From positions 42,201-106,200 of the forward strand of contig PMAT01000084.1 in the NCBI GenBank assembly GCA_003152695.1: 64,000 bases of DNA, in the 5' to 3' direction. The position numbers and the translations under genes were made by a program. The DNA comes from Acidobacteriaceae bacterium (GTDB taxonomy: Bacteria; Acidobacteriota; Terriglobia; Terriglobales; Acidobacteriaceae). Shown piece after piece: positions 3 through 10,565 of the stretch; position 1 is the first letter of the stretch, and every line of letters starts with the position of its first letter. The notes below the pieces were generated by a model. That model saw nothing but the letters and a program-made list of their open reading frames with translations. It was not told the DNA's origin and made no database searches.

Positions 3-1856
3 GGAATCTTCCAGAGCACTCCCGACGGCCGTTTCCTGAGTGTCAATCGCGCCTTCGCGCGGATGCTGGGCTACGATTCTCCCGAACAGATGATGGTGGA
101 AGTTTTGAACATAGGAGGTCAGCTATTTGTCGATGCCGGCGCGCACCAGGAATTGTCGCGTTTGCTGGAAAATAGCAGCGAATTGCACAATTTCGATTTC
201 GAAATCTATGACAGAGATGGCAAGAAGAAATGGATATCGGCGAACGTGCGTGCCGTAGTGGACGCTGCCGGGAAAGTCATACGTCACGAAGGCGCGGTCG
301 AAGACATCACCGAACGCAAAGAGGCGGAAGCCATCCAAGAGGAATTGCGAAGGATCGTGGCCAGCATTCCAGGAACTATTTTTGCGTTTCTCATGCGGCC
401 GGACGGCTCCAGCGCCATACCCTTCGCCAGCTCCGGGCTGCACGATATTTTTGCTCTCGCTCCCGACGATGTAATTGATGACGCCGGCCCGGTGTTGGCG
501 ACCATTCATCCCGACGATCTCCCCCACTTTAAGGCGACCGTTGCGGATTCGTTCCGCTCGTTGACGCCCTGGCACGACGAGTTTCGTGTGAAGCACCCGA
601 AACGGGGACTGCTCTGGGTCAAAGTAGATGCCTCGCCGGAACGGGAGCCGGATGGCAGCGTCTTTTGGCATGGATTTCTGATCGATAATACCGAGCGCAA
701 GCAGCTGGAATCTCAACTTCTGCAGGCGCAGAAAATGGAGGCGGTTGGCCGCTTGGCGGGCGGGGTCTCCCACGACTTCAACAACATCATGGGCATTGTG
801 ATCGGCTACAGCGATCTGATCGCCGAGGCCATGCCGCCTGCGGATGTGAACCTGCGCCGGATCATAAAGATCAAGGACGCCGCCCAGCGGGCCACCGCGT
901 TGATTCGTCAGTTGCTGGCCTTTAGCCGCTTGCAGGTATTCGCCCCAAATCTCATGGACCTGAATGTGAGCATTAGTCATCTCGCCGAAATGCTGCCGCG
1001 TCTGCTGGGGGAGGACATCCGACTCATGCTATCGCTGGATCCGGAGCTGTGGACGGTGAAGGCTGATCCCTCGCAGATTGACCAAGTCCTCATGAACCTC
1101 TCCGTCAATGCCCGCGACGCCATGCCGCACGGTGGCAAGCTGGTGATTGAGACGCACAATGTCGAACTTGACGAGTCTTGTGCCAGCGCGCATCCGGGTG
1201 TGCCACCCGGTCCCTTCGCCGTGATCTGCGTTTCTGACACCGGCACCGGCATTAGCTCGGAAGTGATGCCGCGCATCTTCGATCCATTTTTTACGACCAA
1301 GGAGATGGGAAAAGGAACCGGCCTGGGTCTGTCCACGGTTTACGGGATTGTCAGACAAAGCGGAGGTTTCATAGCAGTCGACACCAAAGTACCGGGCGGT
1401 ACGACCTTCAAAATATACCTGCCGAGCCAGAGTGGACTGGCCCATGTGACCCCTCCCAAGAAAGTGAATACGCAACCCAGGACGGTGGCCTCGAAAACGA
1501 TTCTGCTGGCCGAGGACGACTCTGCCTTGCGGGAGATTGTAAGTATCCAGTTGGAAGAATTGGGTTACACCGTGCTCGCGGCCAGCAACGGTCGGGAAGC
1601 CATCCGCATGGCCGAAAAACAAGAAGGGCCAATCGATCTGCTGCTTACCGATGTGGTGATGCCCGGCATGAGCGGCCGCCAACTGGCCGATAGGCTCAAG
1701 CAGAAAATCCCGGTGCTGAAGGTGCTGTTTGTTTCCGGCTACAGCGGTGACATGATCTTGCGGGACGGCACCCTGGAGCCCGGAGCTTACTTTGCCAATA
1801 AGCCCCTCACGAAAACCGCCCTGGATGAGAAGTTGCACAGCATCTTCAGGGCCTAA
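3..1856 (+). CDS. Hybrid sensor histidine kinase/response regulator with PAS domains (5'-truncated by window edge)
   Basis: Frame is open upstream of the listed ATG at 63 (GIFQSTPDGRFLSVNRAFARMLGYDSPEQM, PAS-like). H-box GRLAGGVSHDFNNIMG, N-box NLSVNARDAMP, DTGTGI, GKGTGLGLSTVYGIV, and C-terminal receiver ILLAEDDSALRE...LLLTDVVMPGMSG. Confidence 0.93.
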   Translation, partial: GIFQSTPDGRFLSVNRAFARMLGYDSPEQMMVEVLNIGGQLFVDAGAHQELSRLLENSSELHNFDFEIYDRDGKKKWISANVRAVVDAAGKVIRHEGAVEDITERKEAEAIQEELRRIVASIPGTIFAFLMRPDGSSAIPFASSGLHDIFALAPDDVIDDAGPVLATIHPDDLPHFKATVADSFRSLTPWHDEFRVKHPKRGLLWVKVDASPEREPDGSVFWHGFLIDNTERKQLESQLLQAQKMEAVGRLAGGVSHDFNNIMGIVIGYSDLIAEAMPPADVNLRRIIKIKDAAQRATALIRQLLAFSRLQVFAPNLMDLNVSISHLAEMLPRLLGEDIRLMLSLDPELWTVKADPSQIDQVLMNLSVNARDAMPHGGKLVIETHNVELDESCASAHPGVPPGPFAVICVSDTGTGISSEVMPRIFDPFFTTKEMGKGTGLGLSTVYGIVRQSGGFIAVDTKVPGGTTFKIYLPSQSGLAHVTPPKKVNTQPRTVASKTILLAEDDSALREIVSIQLEELGYTVLAASNGREAIRMAEKQEGPIDLLLTDVVMPGMSGRQLADRLKQKIPVLKVLFVSGYSGDMILRDGTLEPGAYFANKPLTKTALDEKLHSIFRA

Positions 1857-1939
1857 GAAGAAAGCTGGCTAACCCCTGGCTTTCTGCCCAAAGGGGAATT
1901 CCCCAAAGATCGGGAGAATTCTCGGCGAGAGAGATTCCA

Positions 1940-3346
1940 ATGAAGGAACTAGAACACGTGAAGCAAGCTGGATCGCGCGAATCGCAAGTGACGGTGCTGG
2001 CGATCGACGACGAGTCCGACTTCCTGGAGTTTGTCGGGGAGGCCATATCTTCTGAAAGCGTGGATTTTATTTCGACCACGAACCCGGAAGAGGCGCTGGC
2101 CATCGTCCACAAGCGGCATCCCCCGGTCATCCTGCTGGATTTGAATATGCCTACGGCCCCGGGGATGGACGTTCTAGAGCGTATTCTCGGGATCGATCCC
2201 AATATCGATGTCGTGATGCTGACCGCAGACTACTCCACCGAATCAGCGGTGCGGGCCATTCAACAGGGAGCGTGCGATTACCTGGTGAAGCCCATCGGGG
2301 TCGAGCGTTTGCGGGAACGCGTCGGCTTGTTACTGGAAGAAGCGCGGCGCCGCGAGCATCGCCACCGACTGGAGGAGGACGTCTACCAGTCCCTCCAGTT
2401 TGAGGGCATGGTAGGACAAAGTCCGATCATGCAGGAAGTCTTCGTCGCCATACGCCGCATCGCGCCGCATTTTCGGACGGTGTTGATTGGCGGCGCCACC
2501 GGAACCGGCAAGGAGTTGGTGGCCCGCGCCCTGCACCGGCTGAGTCCCGTGGCTGGCAAGCCCTTGGTGGTTTGCAACTGTGCCGCGATCACGGAAACGC
2601 TGCTGGAGAGTGAGTTGTTCGGGTCCGTCCGGGGAGCCTTCACGGGAGCCAGCCAGGACCGCATTGGTTTGATAGAAGCCGCGCATGGCGGGGTGTTGTT
2701 TATGGATGAAATCGGCGAGATGTCGCAGGCCATGCAGGCGAAACTGTTGCGCGTGTTTCAGAACCAAGAGGTGCGGCAGGTCGGAGCCACGGCTTCTCGC
2801 AAGGTAGACGTCCGCGTGATCGCCTCAACCCACCGCGACCTGCGCAAAATGGTGTCGCAGGGACAATTTCGTGAGGATTTGTATTACCGGCTTTCCATGA
2901 TCGAAATCAAGCTGCCGTCGCTGGCAGAACGCAAAGAAGACCTGCACCTGCTGGAGCAGGACATTCTTCGCCGTTGTGCGACGGAATTGCAGAAGCCGGT
3001 CGCCGCCCTCACCCGCCGGGCGCAGACCGTGCTGTCACGCCATTCCTGGCCGGGAAATATTCGGGAACTCGAAAACGTTCTGGGACGCGCCTGCATGATG
3101 GCAACGACCAACACCATAGACGTCCGCGATCTTCCCGATTCCGTGAAGATCATAGTTGCCGGCAACGGGGACGAGGTGTTGGTGCCGTTGGCGGATGTGC
3201 AGAGAAGGCACATTGAGCGCGTGCTGCAGAGCGTGGATGGCAACAAGGCGCGCGCCGGAGAGATCCTTCAGATCAGCCGCTCCAGTCTCTATCGAATCCT
3301 GCAGGAGTCCAGCGACTCCCCCCGGAATACCTTATTGGACTCTTAA
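1940..3346 (+). CDS. Sigma-54-dependent response regulator (NtrC family: receiver, AAA+, Fis-type HTH)
   Basis: Receiver VLAIDDESDFLEF...VILLDLNMP; AAA+ GATGTGKELVARALH, ESELFGSVRGAFTGA (GAFTGA loop), WPGNIRELENVLGRA; C-terminal HTH. Confidence 0.95.
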   Translation: MKELEHVKQAGSRESQVTVLAIDDESDFLEFVGEAISSESVDFISTTNPEEALAIVHKRHPPVILLDLNMPTAPGMDVLERILGIDPNIDVVMLTADYSTESAVRAIQQGACDYLVKPIGVERLRERVGLLLEEARRREHRHRLEEDVYQSLQFEGMVGQSPIMQEVFVAIRRIAPHFRTVLIGGATGTGKELVARALHRLSPVAGKPLVVCNCAAITETLLESELFGSVRGAFTGASQDRIGLIEAAHGGVLFMDEIGEMSQAMQAKLLRVFQNQEVRQVGATASRKVDVRVIASTHRDLRKMVSQGQFREDLYYRLSMIEIKLPSLAERKEDLHLLEQDILRRCATELQKPVAALTRRAQTVLSRHSWPGNIRELENVLGRACMMATTNTIDVRDLPDSVKIIVAGNGDEVLVPLADVQRRHIERVLQSVDGNKARAGEILQISRSSLYRILQESSDSPRNTLLDS

Positions 3347-3490
3347 AGCTTGGAGTGTCAGTGTTAAGGCCGACCGGCGACCCGGCGACTTCAAGCTTGT
3401 CTCCCGAGTTGTGCCTCGATTTATTAGGACCAGCATGCGCGGGCCGCATCCGCTGCAACGTCCTGCGCCGGACTATAATTGGGCGTACCG

Positions 3491-6088
3491 ATGGCCGTAG
3501 TCCAAGGCACGATTCTCGGGCAGTATGAAATTCTCTCGCCCCTGGGCGTGGGCGGAATGGGCGAGGTGTATCGCGCGCGTGACACCCGGCTGGAACGAGA
3601 GGTCGCGATCAAGGTCCTGCCCGAGTCCGTCACCTCCGACGCCGGCCGCTTGTACCGCTTCGAAGTTGAAGCGCGAGCCGCAGCGGCTTTGAACCATCCC
3701 AACATTCTTGCGGTGTACCAGATGGCGACGCACGAGGGTGTGTCGTACCTTGTGTCGGAACTATTGGAGGGCGAAACGCTGCGCGACCGGCTCCGGCGCG
3801 GGCCGATACCGCTGCGCAAGGCCATCGACTACGGCGTGCAGATCGCGGACGGTTTGGCGGCAGCGCACGAAAGAGGCATCGTCCATCGCGACCTGAAACC
3901 GGAGAACCTGTTCCTCAACAAGGATGGACGGGCCAAGATTCTCGACTTCGGCCTGGCCAAGCTCGTCCCTGCTCCCGTTGCATCTCCCGACGGTCGAACC
4001 GTTACGCTCCCGGAGGAAACCGAACCTGGCGTGGTGGTGGGAACCGTGGGCTATATGTCTCCTGAGCAGGTGCGCGGAGGGAATGCCGACCACCGCTCTG
4101 ACATCTTTGCGTTCGGCACAATTCTCTACGAGATGGTCACGGGGAAACGGGCGTTTCGCAAACCAACTTCGCCGGAAACCATGGTCGCGATTTTGAACGA
4201 AGACCCACCGCCGATCTCGCAGCTTGCGCCCGACACGCCTGCGGGGGTGCAGAAAGTCGTGCAACGCTGCCTCGAGAAGGATCCGGAGCAGAGGTTCTAC
4301 TCGGCCCACGATTTGGCTTTCGCGCTGGAAGCACTATCGGATTGGGCCATCTCGCCACGCCCTTTTGGTCGTGCGCAGCAGAGCACGAAGCCCAATCGCA
4401 TGCGGTTTGCAACCGCCGGGGTCTCGCTGGTGCTTATGCTCGGCGCTGCGGTATTAGCTTATTTGTGGATACGGCCCGAACCAGTGCCCAAGGTGTCCAA
4501 TTACGTCCAGCTTACGCATGACGGCAAGCATAAATGGTTGGCCGGAACGGACGGTTCGAGGCTTTACCTGAGTTATGGTGCATACGCTTCCCGCAGTATT
4601 GCCGAAATTTCGATCTCGGGTGGGAATCTCAGCAGGATCCCGACGCTTTCTCCCAATATGGAGGTTGCTGACGTTTCACCGGACGGGGCGGAACTTCTCG
4701 TGGTGGATGCGCAGGGCAATCCTGACACGGGGCCGCTCTGGAGTCTGCCTGTTCTGGGTGGTTCCCCGCGCCGATTGGGCGACATTGTGGGAATTGACGG
4801 CACGTGGTCGCCCGACGGCAAGATGCTGGCTTACTGTAAAGGGAACGAATTGTTCCTGGCGAAGGCGGACGGCACCGAATCCCGTAAGTTGGTCACGATG
4901 AAGGACTCTGACCTTATCTATCATGCCTCCTGGTCGCCCGACGGGAGGCATTTGCGATTCGATGTGCAGAACCCTGCGGACGGCTCGCGCTTTCTTTGGG
5001 AGACTACGGTGGACGGTACAGACTTGCATCGCTTGCTTCCCGGTTGGAACAAACCGCCTGATTCGGACTGCTGCGGCAGATGGACGGCCGACGGGAAGTA
5101 CTTCGTCTTCGTGTCGCGCGGACAAATTTGGGCCCTGCCGCGAAAGGGTAGTTTGCTTCACTCCGGACCCCAGCCCATTCCACTGACTTCCAGTCCTCTG
5201 TGGTTGACCTCCCCACTTCCCAGCAGAGACGGCAAGAAGCTCTTCGTAGTCGGCCGGACGTTCTCGGGCGAGTTGACGCGCTTCGACGTGAAATCGGGCC
5301 AGTTCGCGCCCGTTCTCGGGGGCATTTCAGCCGAATATGTTGCCTTCTCGCGGGATGGCCATTGGGTGGCTTACGTTTCCTATCCCGGAGGCACCCTGTG
5401 GCGCAGCAAAGCGGACGGGAGCGAGCGACTGCAACTGACCTATCCGCCCAACTATGCCATGCTGCCTCGCTGGTCGCCGGACGGCAAGAAGATCGTGTAC
5501 TTTGAAAACATTGCCGACAAGCCTTCCAGAATCTACGAGGTTTCACCCGAGGGAGGAATTCCCCGGCAGCTGATGCCGGACGATCCACAACCGCAATGGG
5601 ACCCGAACTGGTCGCCGGACGGGAGCAAGATCGTCTTCGGTGGCGCACCGTACAATGCTGCATCGGCTGTCCGCATCCTCGACTTGGCGAGCGGCAAAGT
5701 CTCCACGCTGCCCGGATCGCAGGGCCTCTTCCAGCCCCGCTGGTCCCCTGACGGAAGATACATTCCCGCGGTATCGTCTGACTCGAAGACCCTTTGGCTG
5801 TTCGATTTCCAGACCCAGAAATGGACTGAGGTCGCCGAGGGCACGTTGGGTTGGCTGAATTGGTCGAAGGACGGCCAGTACCTGCAGATTCTCGATAGCA
5901 GCGGAACGGGTGCCGTTCTCAGGATTCGGCTCAGCGACCGAACGATAGAACGCGTGGTAGACCTGAAAAACTTCTCCTACACGGGCCACTTATGGACTGG
6001 GCTGGCTATCGCGCCCGACGATTCGCCGTTGCTGCTCCGCGACGTCGGAGACCAGGGCGTCTACGCCCTCGACTGGGAAGCGCCGTAA
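3491..6088 (+). CDS. Serine/threonine protein kinase with C-terminal TolB/WD40-like beta-propeller
   Basis: Kinase motifs YEILSPLGVGGMGEVYRARD, VAIKVLP, HRDLKPENLFL, DFGLAK; a TM segment; repeated WSPDGK blades. ATG at 3491 preferred over TTG at 3479. Confidence 0.93.
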   Translation: MAVVQGTILGQYEILSPLGVGGMGEVYRARDTRLEREVAIKVLPESVTSDAGRLYRFEVEARAAAALNHPNILAVYQMATHEGVSYLVSELLEGETLRDRLRRGPIPLRKAIDYGVQIADGLAAAHERGIVHRDLKPENLFLNKDGRAKILDFGLAKLVPAPVASPDGRTVTLPEETEPGVVVGTVGYMSPEQVRGGNADHRSDIFAFGTILYEMVTGKRAFRKPTSPETMVAILNEDPPPISQLAPDTPAGVQKVVQRCLEKDPEQRFYSAHDLAFALEALSDWAISPRPFGRAQQSTKPNRMRFATAGVSLVLMLGAAVLAYLWIRPEPVPKVSNYVQLTHDGKHKWLAGTDGSRLYLSYGAYASRSIAEISISGGNLSRIPTLSPNMEVADVSPDGAELLVVDAQGNPDTGPLWSLPVLGGSPRRLGDIVGIDGTWSPDGKMLAYCKGNELFLAKADGTESRKLVTMKDSDLIYHASWSPDGRHLRFDVQNPADGSRFLWETTVDGTDLHRLLPGWNKPPDSDCCGRWTADGKYFVFVSRGQIWALPRKGSLLHSGPQPIPLTSSPLWLTSPLPSRDGKKLFVVGRTFSGELTRFDVKSGQFAPVLGGISAEYVAFSRDGHWVAYVSYPGGTLWRSKADGSERLQLTYPPNYAMLPRWSPDGKKIVYFENIADKPSRIYEVSPEGGIPRQLMPDDPQPQWDPNWSPDGSKIVFGGAPYNAASAVRILDLASGKVSTLPGSQGLFQPRWSPDGRYIPAVSSDSKTLWLFDFQTQKWTEVAEGTLGWLNWSKDGQYLQILDSSGTGAVLRIRLSDRTIERVVDLKNFSYTGHLWTGLAIAPDDSPLLLRDVGDQGVYALDWEAP

Positions 6089-6377: not shown

Positions 6378-6764
6378 ATGGCCTTTGACGTGAAAGAATT
6401 GATGATTGACATTACTAAGGCTCAGGAAGGGCAGCTACTCTGCCACCCCAGCGTAATCACCCCCACCGTGGGTTGCGGATACTACAGCTGTCACCCTACG
6501 ATGTTCGTTTGCCACCCCAGTGTGCGAACGACAACGTTGTTGCTGTGCAGGTTTGGCACCTACACATGTTTTGGCGGATCGATTCTGACCTGCGGTGGAA
6601 CGATTTATTGCGCTGGTACAGAAGAGCCGACGATCCTTTTCCAAGGCATTGACCATGAAACCCTGAAAGCGGTCAAGGCCCAGCTGCATGAAGCTCTGAA
6701 AGAAGTGGACGAGCACGAAAAGCGTTTAGCCGAGACCGCTAAGCAGCCGGGAAAGGAAAAATAG
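6378..6764 (+). CDS. Putative RiPP precursor peptide: Cys/Ser/Thr-rich core with repeated CHP(S/T) motifs and charged helical C-terminal extension
   Basis: 128 aa; residues 22-78 contain 8 Cys and many Ser/Thr (CHPSVITPTVGCGYYSCHPTMFVCHPSVRTTTLLLCRFGTYTCFGGSILTCGGTIYC). C-terminal DHETLKAVKAQLHEALKEVDEHEKRLAETAKQ. Directly upstream of LanC/kinase genes. Confidence 0.65.
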   Translation: MAFDVKELMIDITKAQEGQLLCHPSVITPTVGCGYYSCHPTMFVCHPSVRTTTLLLCRFGTYTCFGGSILTCGGTIYCAGTEEPTILFQGIDHETLKAVKAQLHEALKEVDEHEKRLAETAKQPGKEK

Positions 6765-6836
6765 AGGCTCGCAAAAGCGGCCTCCGCACAGTGATGACGT
6801 TGCGGCATGGCTGACGGCGTGAACCATTGCACCTCG

Positions 6837-6885
6837 CTGAGCGGAAGCGACTGTTCAGGTACTCTCCGCTCAGTGTTTTGTTGTT
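6837..6885 (+). terminator. Putative attenuator hairpin between precursor and modification genes
   Basis: Perfect 9-bp inverted repeat CTGAGCGGA (6837-6845)/TCCGCTCAG (6865-6873) followed by TGTTTTGTTGTT. Confidence 0.5.
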
Positions 6886-6908: not shown

Positions 6909-8126
6909 ATGAAAAAGGGTTCGTCCGATAACGTCCTGGAATCGGTTTTCGCCGCGAATCCCAAGTATGAATTAGTATTGTTCGACCGCCTTCCCGCCGA
7001 GCAGCGCGAGATGCTGAAGGATCTCCTGAAAGATCCCAATTTCTACGGTGTTCTTCGCCCGCTTGAGAAGTCCGGCCTGGGGGTGAAATCGGTTTCGCGA
7101 GACACCGCCCTGCTTTATTTGACACTCCAGCAACCGGGTCGGCTCCCCGCGTACGTGCGAGCGACCCTCGGAGACCGGTGCAATCAAGAGATCACGCGGC
7201 TTGTTCTGGACGGCGTGCTGGCCCTCGAACGGGAGGGCAAGTTTCTCTCCGGGTCCGAGGCCGCCGCGCTGATTTGCGCCGCCAAGGAGGAATCGACCGC
7301 CACCTCCACGGTCGAAGGATTCCTGGAGCGCCTTTCCTTGGACGCTCTTCGCTACGGCCAGAGTTTGCGCCTGACTGATCCCATGGTGCTTTCGTCCCGT
7401 CTCTACGGGTACAATCGCACCCCGCTCTCCCCTTTTTGGAGCCGAATTCTTCCCAACGCTGACACCGTCGCCGATTATCTGGGCATCCGGGAAGGCAGTT
7501 CCCGGGCATTGCTTGACCGCGAGTGGTCGAGGGTACGCAATCCCGCCGCTAACGACGGCTGGCTTGCCTGGCAGTCACGCCGTCTTGGCACCAGGGCTGC
7601 TTTCGGCGACCGTGCAACGATCCAATGCAAACTGTATATAAGTCCGAAAACCGATAACTTGCCCCAGGTCTTTCCCTTGATTCTTGCTGCGCTGAGCCGG
7701 ACTCGGGTGCAACACTTCAAGGTCGGGAAGGATGCCCCAGGGTTGCTGCGCCCGGACAAGATGGTGGCCTACTTCGGCAGCTACAACGACTTGATGGATG
7801 CTGCAGAACAATTGAAAAAGGAGCTGGGGGACTGCCCGGCACAGGGCGTCCCGTTTACGGCGGAACTGGCCGGTGATGGCTTGCTTTCGTGGGGTGTCGA
7901 TCCGCCTGCCGAGGAGCAGGCGCTGCCCTGGATAGGGCGAGAGAGTTGGCGGCTGTGGGTGACCAACCGTCTCGCTGTAGCCTTGATCGCAGCCAGTACG
8001 GATAACACCGCAAATCTAGAGCCATGGCAATTCGCCCTGCAACGACTCCAGTTCGAGGGTGTCAATACACGCTCCTGGACCCCCGCCGGCACTGAACGGA
8101 AGCCTAGTCTTGGCGAGGAGAATTAG
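6909..8126 (+). CDS. HopA1-like protein (putative RiPP phospho-Ser/Thr lyase partner)
   Basis: Contains FKVGKDAPGLLRPDKMVAYFGSYNDL...GVPFTAELAGDGLLSWGVDPP, which I recognise as resembling HopA1-family proteins linked to RiPP kinases. Start at ATG 6909 (MKKGSSDNVLES) preferred over 6807. Not verified by search. Confidence 0.55.
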   Translation: MKKGSSDNVLESVFAANPKYELVLFDRLPAEQREMLKDLLKDPNFYGVLRPLEKSGLGVKSVSRDTALLYLTLQQPGRLPAYVRATLGDRCNQEITRLVLDGVLALEREGKFLSGSEAAALICAAKEESTATSTVEGFLERLSLDALRYGQSLRLTDPMVLSSRLYGYNRTPLSPFWSRILPNADTVADYLGIREGSSRALLDREWSRVRNPAANDGWLAWQSRRLGTRAAFGDRATIQCKLYISPKTDNLPQVFPLILAALSRTRVQHFKVGKDAPGLLRPDKMVAYFGSYNDLMDAAEQLKKELGDCPAQGVPFTAELAGDGLLSWGVDPPAEEQALPWIGRESWRLWVTNRLAVALIAASTDNTANLEPWQFALQRLQFEGVNTRSWTPAGTERKPSLGEEN

Positions 8127-8132
8127 CGTTTC

Positions 8133-10565
8133 ATGAGCATCACCGATCCGTGGGTTCTGCCCAAGGGCATCGTCATCACCCCAGTCGAAGACTTACCAGC
8201 TAAACTGCGCCAGCAGGTGGACGCGCGCGACGGCGACTTCGCAATTTCACGGCCGCAATCTCGCACGCCATCCCGTATCCTCGACCCGCAATCCGCGGCC
8301 TTGCTTAAAGAGTTCGAAACTCCGAAGACGATTGGTCAAGCCATCGCCCACTACAGCCGTGCGGTGAGTAGCGACCCTGAGCAGACGCTGGAAGAGGCGT
8401 TTACCATGCTGACTCAGCTGATTGGCTGGCGGCTGCTGGTCCCGCCGAATTCAGAAGAAGCCGAGGAGATTCAGGCGTCGTTCCAGCCTGGCGTCACGGC
8501 AGTGGACTGTGAAGTACTGCAATGCCTACAGGCCCTTGAAGACAGCGAAATCTATCAAGTCCGCCGGCCTAAAGGCACCATTGCCGCCCTCAAGATACTG
8601 CGACCGGGCTCCAATGCCGAAGGCTACCGGATGCTCGAGCGTGAGGGCGCAATCCTCAGGCACCTGGCTGGCACGGTTAGCCCCGTGCTCCTGGATGCCG
8701 GGGTCTGGGAAAGCCGCCCGTACCTTCTCCTTGAGTGGTGTGAGGGCGTTGATGCTGGTACCGCCGCTGCTCAACTGCATCAGGGTCGCAGCGTGGAGTG
8801 CCAAGAGAAGCTCTTCAGTCTGTGTTGCCAGATCCTCCGTACGTACTCGCGACTGCACGACCAGGGAGTAATTCACTCCGATATCCATCCCCGAAACATC
8901 ATGGTAGACGACGACTATCGGGTCAAACTTGTAGATTTCGGTCTTGCCCGGCAGGAGAACACAAACCAGAAGTTCGGTGAGCCTCCACGAGGAGGTGTCG
9001 GGTTTTTCTTTGAGCCGGAATACGCGGCGGCGGTCAGCCAGGGCCAACCGCCTCCCTGTGCCAGCCAGCTCGGAGAACAATATGCCTTGGCCGCGTTGCT
9101 CTATTCCTTCCTCGCTGGCAATGAGTATGTGGACTTCTCCCTGACCAAAGACGAGATGATGCGTCAAATTCTGGAGGTGTCGCCCGTGCCCTTCGCGCAA
9201 CGGAGCGTGGCGTCCTGGCCTGAAGTAGAGAGTGTCCTGGCCAAGGCACTCAGTAAGGATCCGTCCGCACGCTTCGCCTCGGTCGCAGAGTTTGCCGACG
9301 CTCTCAGCGCGGTGGAGGTGCCCGCTGCAGGTTGGTTCCTGGGCACTGTCGCCGCCGATCCAACAGCCTTGGTTGGCGTGCTGGCCCGCGTCATGGCGCG
9401 GGTCGGATTCTCAGGAAATCTCGTGCATTCGGGTTTAAGTACTGCTCCGAAGGCTTCCCTGACTTACGGCGCCGCCGGCATAGCCTATGCGCTATATCGC
9501 ATCGCCTGTGGACGCCAGGACGCCGCGCTGCTTGCGCTCGCCGATGTGTGGTGTCGCCGGGCCGTGTCTGACCCCGATAACGGCGACAGTTACTACAACC
9601 CGGAAATCGAGATCACTCCGGAAATCGTCGGATCGATTTCGCCCTATCACACCTTGAGCGGCATTCATGCGGTGCAGGCGCTGGTCAGTCACGCGATGTG
9701 CGACGTCAGCTCACAAGCTGCTGGGATCGAGGGCTTCATGGCGATGTCGCAGCAGCCCTGCGACAACCTCGACCTGGCCTTGGGCCGCTCCGGCACCCTG
9801 CTGATCACTTCGCTGCTGCTCGACACCCTGGCGGCCGGCGACTTGCTGAAGCCCGATCGCCTGGTAGAGTTCGGCAACCACACGATGAATTCGGTGTGGC
9901 GGGAAATCGAAAAACAGCCGCCCGTCCGCGAAGGCACTCTGATCACCTATCTCGGGATTGCGCACGGCTGGGCCGGCATCCTGTACGCTGCGCTTAACTG
10001 GCATAGGTCGTCCGGCGCGGAGTTGCCGCGCCATTTCGCGGAACGTCTGCAACAGCTATCGGATTGCGCCGAACCGTCGGGCCGGGGCGTCCGTTGGCCC
10101 TGGTTCCTTCCCCAGGGCAGGCGGGATGGCCCTGCCAGCTACATGTCGGGGTGGTGTAACGGCAGCGCTGGGTACATCTTCTTATGGACGGCGGCGTACG
10201 ACGTGCTCCATGACGACGCATATCTGCGGCTTGCGGAAAGGGCCGCCTGGCACGTGTGGGAATCCACCGCGCCGATCAGCAACCTGTGTTGCGGTCTGGC
10301 TGGACAGGCCTACGGTCTGTTGAACTTCTACAAGCACACCGGAGAGAGCATATGGTTAGACCGCGCCCGTGAGTTGTCTTTTCGGGCTGCTGCCTGGGAC
10401 ACGGATAGTTACGCGGCGATGAAACTTACCCCAGAAAGCCTCTACAAAGGAGAGATGGGAGTTGCAGTACTAGCCGCTGAACAGTCCACTCCCGAAGCTG
10501 CCTGCATGCCATTCTTCGAGCCTGAGGGTTGGATGGGAAGACGGCGTACCCTATCAGGATGCTGA
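8133..10565 (+). CDS. Fused RRE/PqqD-like, protein kinase and LanC-like enzyme (lanthipeptide synthetase-like)
   Basis: Kinase: AALKILRP, VIHSDIHPRNIMV, VKLVDFGLAR. LanC-like: GIAHGWAGILYA, SGWCNGSAGYIF, SNLCCGLAGQAYGLL. N-terminal ~110 aa has a PqqD-like pattern (RILDPQSAALLKEFETPKTIGQAIAHY...LEEAFTMLTQLIGWRLLVP). Confidence 0.8.
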   Translation: MSITDPWVLPKGIVITPVEDLPAKLRQQVDARDGDFAISRPQSRTPSRILDPQSAALLKEFETPKTIGQAIAHYSRAVSSDPEQTLEEAFTMLTQLIGWRLLVPPNSEEAEEIQASFQPGVTAVDCEVLQCLQALEDSEIYQVRRPKGTIAALKILRPGSNAEGYRMLEREGAILRHLAGTVSPVLLDAGVWESRPYLLLEWCEGVDAGTAAAQLHQGRSVECQEKLFSLCCQILRTYSRLHDQGVIHSDIHPRNIMVDDDYRVKLVDFGLARQENTNQKFGEPPRGGVGFFFEPEYAAAVSQGQPPPCASQLGEQYALAALLYSFLAGNEYVDFSLTKDEMMRQILEVSPVPFAQRSVASWPEVESVLAKALSKDPSARFASVAEFADALSAVEVPAAGWFLGTVAADPTALVGVLARVMARVGFSGNLVHSGLSTAPKASLTYGAAGIAYALYRIACGRQDAALLALADVWCRRAVSDPDNGDSYYNPEIEITPEIVGSISPYHTLSGIHAVQALVSHAMCDVSSQAAGIEGFMAMSQQPCDNLDLALGRSGTLLITSLLLDTLAAGDLLKPDRLVEFGNHTMNSVWREIEKQPPVREGTLITYLGIAHGWAGILYAALNWHRSSGAELPRHFAERLQQLSDCAEPSGRGVRWPWFLPQGRRDGPASYMSGWCNGSAGYIFLWTAAYDVLHDDAYLRLAERAAWHVWESTAPISNLCCGLAGQAYGLLNFYKHTGESIWLDRARELSFRAAAWDTDSYAAMKLTPESLYKGEMGVAVLAAEQSTPEAACMPFFEPEGWMGRRRTLSGC

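Follow-up and report, generated by a model that had tools for sequence, protein, structure and literature searches.

The window, as we call the whole 64,000-nucleotide stretch of Acidobacteriaceae bacterium DNA analysed here (contig PMAT01000084.1, positions 42,201 to 106,200), carries a three-gene operon read in one direction, on the plus strand. It is headed by a precursor peptide gene (6378..6764, ATG start, 128 amino acids (aa)), followed by the gene of a predicted HopA1/LanY-fold phospho-Ser/Thr lyase (6909..8126, 405 aa) and that of a synthetase (8133..10565, 810 aa) in which a recognition element of ribosomally synthesized and post-translationally modified peptides (RiPPs), or RRE, is fused to a kinase and a LanC cyclase. 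The gap ahead of the lyase gene is 144 bases long, and that between the two enzyme genes 6 bases; an earlier lyase start at 6807 was dropped for the ATG at 6909 from comparison with the homologue in a relative, G217. A preliminary description of the first open reading frame (ORF), which had placed a Cys-rich precursor in a HopA1-like and LanC context, is right about both neighbours and is supported in part as a whole. In our reading, what the ORF very probably encodes is a precursor from which a so far unnamed hybrid lanthipeptide system makes a (methyl)lanthionine-bridged peptide.

Translation of the precursor gene confirms the eight Cys described between residues 22 and 78 (positions 22, 33, 38, 45, 57, 64, 72, and 78), which come in addition to six His, as well as three CHP(S/T) units (CHPS at 22, CHPT at 38, and CHPS at 45). 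A charged tail of about 45 aa had also been described; the last 43 or so residues are indeed charged and contain no Cys. Three CHP[ST] units occurred in none of 20,000 shuffles of the protein, and at least one in 50 of them. Searches of Pfam, NCBIfam, and the PDB sequences with the precursor gave no significant match. The gene is conserved and coding, with 85% identity in an Acidobacteriaceae metagenome-assembled genome (MAG; L046) and 54% in the G217 relative, where it adjoins the same two enzyme genes in each case.

The precursors of this family consist of an N-terminal leader, a hypervariable core of Cys, Ser, and Thr, and a C-terminal helical segment. The window leader, MAFDVKELMIDITKA (6378..6422, +), carries the family motif F-x-[VI]-[KR]-[DE]-L-[MLA]-[IV]-x-[IV], which could be anchored in 32 of the 35 precursors. 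The core (6423..6629, +) diversifies faster than the leader and reads as the units CHPS, CGYYS, CHPT, CHPS, CRFGT, CFGGS, CGGT, and CAGT. The helical, follower-like segment (6630..6761, +; L..VKAQL.EAL.EV) is conserved across phyla, in nearly all homologues. With profiles built without close relatives, none of 2,000 shuffles scored as high as the window leader, and the window tail likewise outscored all 2,000; two or three ORF ends did outscore the window ends in this test, the comparison set including other family precursors.

What the cores have in common is not the CHP triplet, to which the preliminary description had drawn attention. It drifts to CNPT, CRPPT, CTPS, and CYAS repeats in the G217 relative and is not kept across the wider family; we rejected it as the key motif in favour of a general spacing rule that is kept, namely a Ser/Thr placed three or four residues after a Cys. 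In the window, all eight Cys obey this +3/+4 rule (3.1 expected, p = 0.0005). Across 24 cores, Ser/Thr are enriched after Cys at +4 (z = 13.5) and +3 (z = 4.0) and depleted at +2, and nothing comparable is seen on the upstream side. Of 261 Cys, 183 fit the rule against 86 expected, the reverse direction giving 93 against 86. The rule also applies to eight precursors found later (39 of 70 Cys against 22.4 expected, and 25 against 22.4 in reverse) and to all nine Cys of a Paenibacillus precursor. CC and CxC are depleted in the cores, CxxC is not enriched, and Ser/Thr outnumber Cys in nearly all of them. In CHP(S/T) we therefore see a local version of the Cys-x2/3-(Ser/Thr) ring unit and no metal site, and small rings with the Cys on the N-terminal side are predicted.

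The Pfam and NCBIfam sequence libraries returned nothing significant for the lyase, and its assignment comes from structure prediction. The AlphaFold2 model, built from a seven-sequence alignment (pLDDT 75), found LxmY of the lexapeptide dehydratase and HopA1 as its best Foldseek matches, followed by the lyase-bearing synthetases CuvL, SalKC, and ThurKC and by SpvC and OspF. All 31 homologues have K241, K271, R281, D283, and K284 without exception, and the K241-K271-R281-Y288 spacing (30/10/7) is close to that of R187-K219-R229-Y236 in CaoY (32/10/7), a mapping made from spacing, not from superposition. In CaoY, mutating R187, K219, or R229 impaired phosphate elimination, which R187A and K219A block (PMC9486802). 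The Arg of CaoY is replaced at position 241 by a Lys, which SpvC and LanKC/LanL also have.

The synthetase matches Pkinase (1.9e-19) and LANC_like (4.8e-23). Its kinase has PF00069 as its best match (70.5 bits, against 29 bits for APH), with the Lys, HxD..N, and DFG motifs conserved and intact. Its best NCBIfam match is the class IV LanL profile, aligned only from profile position 237, so that the usual N-terminal lyase part is missing. In its place stands an N-terminal domain (8133..8492, +), conserved in 26 homologues and modelled by AlphaFold2 with a pLDDT of 87.7; its Foldseek matches include PqqD, TbiB1 with leader, MccB, MibB, and ThcOx, which are RRE-type domains or enzymes with one. 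At the sequence level, RRE detection gave weak ThcOx and PqqD matches, and it was the predicted fold, a winged-helix RRE of the PqqD superfamily, that settled the assignment. The LanC domain (9453..10508, +) carries AHGW, WCNG, and CCG, a three-Cys zinc site in which CCG stands in place of the usual CHG; all complete family members whose core is Cys-rich have WCNG/WCHG, CCG, and AHGW or something close to it. In LanM enzymes, the CCG motif has been linked to substrate promiscuity (PMC10027976).

A search with the lyase alignment yielded 29 loci in named genomes, others beyond these, and two plasmids; the weak matches of a first phylum-level search, all but G217, were left out as homologues. 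After removal of duplicates, the lyase and the synthetase are paired at 39 of 39 loci (31/31 with the window included, 6/6 new loci, and 2/2 plasmids), the synthetase being cut by a contig end at two of them, and a recognisable precursor is present at 35 of the 39. Judging from record titles, the operon occurs in at least ten phyla: Acidobacteria, Armatimonadetes, Gemmatimonadetes, Eremiobacterota, Actinobacteria, Nitrospira, Chloroflexi (Dictyobacter), Proteobacteria, Bacteroidota (Chitinophagia), and Verrucomicrobia, with Bacillota on a plasmid. Many loci come from MAGs, and eight from isolates (Dictyobacter kobayashii, Micromonospora halophytica, Nocardia beijingensis, Streptomyces naganishii, Sphingomonas parva, Neoroseomonas alba, Paenibacillus peoriae, and Cupriavidus oxalaticus). 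The precursors are 69-282 aa long and lie nearly always just upstream of the lyase gene, with one downstream of the synthetase gene. No extra precursor in trans was found in 27 genomes, where the only match away from known precursors sits directly downstream of the synthetase gene. Homologues away from modification enzymes, which the preliminary description had named as evidence against its reading, did not turn up in the genomes searched.

Several loci depart from this scheme. In three Alphaproteobacteria (L069:7403-7984, L071:7381-7995, and L073:7420-7998), the single-Cys precursor carries a strongly conserved segment, PNPDCGG(T/S)SLETIP...TP(V/I)VH(V/I)G, while the zinc ligands are missing from the LanC and the N-terminal domain from the lyase; the Cys-rich core and the zinc site are thus missing together, and the product is perhaps dehydrated but uncyclised. 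The Paenibacillus peoriae precursor (L119:8050-8799, WP_060628895.1, annotated as a hypothetical protein) has three tandem leader-core-follower modules with HRQRG joints, and the NCBI label of its synthetase is only “lanthionine synthetase LanC family protein”. On the Cupriavidus oxalaticus plasmid NZ_CP038636.1, a gene adjoining the lyase gene (L120:10164-11063) encodes a second RRE copy fused to a 2-oxoglutarate (2OG)-Fe(II) oxygenase, likely an extra tailoring enzyme that shares the RRE of the synthetase; a second RRE beside the same genes is as expected of a portable recognition domain. The Cupriavidus core resembles that of Nocardia (CDAGCSDSPQSA.CPPPPP), a likeness in sequence that suggests horizontal transfer. 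Very large repetitive cores, with 25-28 Cys and a length of up to about 200 aa, are seen at L044:6756-7544 and L047:2366-4058 (for example CTDCTTQQFSICGTSP and GACSHAAT repeats), and two precursors in tandem, with cores of alternating GCGCTCSCTCSCTC, at L114:5018-5733 (minus strand). The Micromonospora halophytica synthetase (L060:9124-11575) and the Dictyobacter kobayashii precursor (L059:7271-7789) have apparent frameshifts, due to decay or sequencing error.

From the operon, the domains with their intact catalytic motifs, the leader, the tail, and the spacing rule, all read from sequence or structure prediction, we infer the chemistry, the binding of the leader to the RRE, the ring pattern, and the role of the tail as follows. 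The leader would dock as a beta-strand on the RRE of the synthetase, whose kinase domain would phosphorylate Ser/Thr of the core; the separate lyase would then remove the phosphate to give dehydroalanine or dehydrobutyrine, and the CCG-type LanC would add the thiol of each Cys to the dehydroresidue that lies three or four residues further on. The outcome would be strings of small rings. The preliminary description had proposed either a C-terminal follower used for recognition or a modified protein that is not cleaved. The tail is indeed a conserved segment across phyla; the N-terminus, however, is itself a strongly conserved leader, which the predicted RRE fold should bind, leaving the tail at most as a second recognition element. 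Its probable role is that of a follower, as a further docking or spacer element.

Some observations weigh against this reading. The lyase has no significant sequence match to PF17914 (none at E 1) or to the PDB, and what identifies it is its predicted fold together with the motif spacing. The cores of L048, L115, and L117 are exceptions to the +3/+4 rule, and tandem repeats inside cores are not independent and inflate the spacing counts. L043 and L064 are without a recognisable precursor, the conservation of the tail could be structural and have nothing to do with recognition, and the conserved neighbours of the loci do not include a dedicated transporter or leader protease, which is unusual for a secreted lanthipeptide.

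One has to consider, then, whether the protein might be an unmodified metal-binding protein, as the preliminary description had allowed, in which CHP and paired Cys hold zinc or copper, with the enzymes next to it by coincidence or in a regulatory role. The eight Cys and six His, the resemblance of CHP to metal ligands, and the fact that neither a transporter nor a protease lies nearby would all suit such a protein. Yet it is the Ser/Thr at +3/+4 and not the His beside Cys that is kept in homologues, the CC, CxC, and CxxC counts given above do not favour paired ligands, the precursors adjoin modification genes in every genome searched, and the Cys core and the cyclase zinc site go missing together; with no conserved Cys/His ligand spacing, we regard metal binding as highly improbable as the primary explanation. 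It is also improbable, if somewhat less so, that dehydration leads to something other than ordinary lanthionine, such as labionin, His-to-butyrine bonds, or uncyclised dehydroamino acids. His-to-butyrine bonds do occur in copper-binding peptides (PMC10206099), and His comes right after Cys in the CHP units; the excess of Ser/Thr over Cys and the Alphaproteobacterial variants, with a degenerate LanC and almost no Cys, point the same way. Against this, the complete synthetase genes that go with a Cys-rich core all encode the same intact LanC zinc site, and the conserved core residue is Cys, not His.

The fate of the product is a separate matter, as the same chemistry is compatible with a crosslinked, perhaps structural, protein that retains leader, bridged core, and tail together. 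The want of a conserved protease or transporter, the tail kept in nearly all homologues, and the size and Cys repeats of the largest cores speak for retention, which we nevertheless hold to be rather unlikely: RiPP clusters can rely on proteases and exporters encoded elsewhere, and the tandem modules of Paenibacillus resemble a polyprotein meant for cutting.

If the peptide is lanthionine-bridged, as we favour, to which class does the system belong? The general picture of a lanthipeptide locus is there, with a Cys and Ser/Thr core precursor adjoining predicted dehydratase and LanC cyclase genes. The three-gene set has no LanB or LanM dehydratase of classes I and II, a LanM match covering the LanC part only. 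With LanL (class IV) and LanKC (class III), the synthetase shares the kinase-LanC order on one chain, and with LanL the zinc-site cyclase; here, however, an RRE replaces the N-terminal lyase domain, the lyase is a separate gene, the zinc site is CCG, and the scores are far below the cut-offs (143 bits against 650 for NF038150, class IV; 92 against 575 for NF038151, class III); the zinc ligands, which class III enzymes do not have, are also present. Class V (LanK/LanY with or without LanC; cacaoidin, lexapeptide, and SmoA) resembles it in having a separate lyase, of the HopA1 fold that is predicted here, and the kinase on another chain, and the predicted lyase structure is closest to its LxmY, with matching active-site spacing. 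The class V LanK is, however, a stand-alone APH-type enzyme, whereas the kinase here is of PF00069 type and fused to RRE and LanC; in addition, a Lys replaces Arg187 of CaoY, PF17914 is not matched, the precursor has a C-terminal tail, and the operon contains no LanX or flavoprotein. LanKCb of class VI (Streptococcus) also has kinase and cyclase on one chain, with truncated lyase and cyclase domains and miniature peptides (PMC10676316), whereas here the synthetase has no lyase part, the lyase is separate, the LanC is near full-length, and the cores are large.

Two further comparisons concern single parts of the system. CCG-type LanM enzymes (ProcM, with its prochlorosins) share the three-Cys zinc motif and hypervariable cores behind a conserved leader, but here there is no LanM dehydratase domain, the leader is different, and one or two precursors lie beside the enzymes instead of dozens in trans. 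The RREs of PqqD, TbiB1, MccB, MibB, and ThcOx have the fold that is predicted for synthetase residues 1-110, here fused to kinase-LanC; the core enzymes of classes II-V have been reported to contain no identifiable RRE (PMC10604976). The combination of enzymes matches no published class I-VI (PMC9486802, PMC10604976, PMC10676316, PMC12328550): we class it as a lanthipeptide system of new architecture, working like classes IV and V and a member of neither by the tests made. We found no description of it in the open-access literature; the subscription literature was outside the search, and priority is thus uncertain.

As for the surroundings, a histidine kinase, an NtrC-type regulator, and a Ser/Thr kinase-PD40 protein are encoded upstream of the operon on the same strand (window positions 63-6088). 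Sigma-54 sites that would go with the regulator were counted at chance level. Several homologous loci also have PD40/Ser-Thr kinase genes nearby, and two have tricorn proteases, a recurrence that was not shown to exceed the abundance of such genes. In the precursor-lyase gap, a hairpin (CTGAGCGGA...TCCGCTCAG) precedes a T-rich run (6834..6873, +; weak, z = -1.94), and the G217 gap has a similar hairpin with a different loop. It is possibly an attenuator or a processing site and may set the precursor:enzyme ratio; its motif count, at chance, led us to reject a dispersed repeat.

We consider it reasonably probable that these loci represent a further lanthipeptide class in at least ten phyla, with an RRE-guided kinase-LanC(CCG), a split HopA1-fold lyase, leader-core-follower precursors, and, in cores that reach about 200 residues, strings of uniform rings from Cys(i) to i+3/i+4. 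Thanks to the separate lyase, the leader and tail pair, and the Cys-x2/3-(Ser/Thr) rule, ring placement, leader docking, and follower function can be tested directly, and isolates are available for this (Paenibacillus peoriae HS311, Nocardia beijingensis, Micromonospora halophytica, Streptomyces naganishii, and Cupriavidus oxalaticus). The CCG cyclase and the hypervariable cores suggest a tolerant enzyme, of use for constrained peptides. By joining features ascribed to separate classes and adding an RRE to a synthetase type reported without one, the system bears on the origin of the kinase-dependent classes III to VI.
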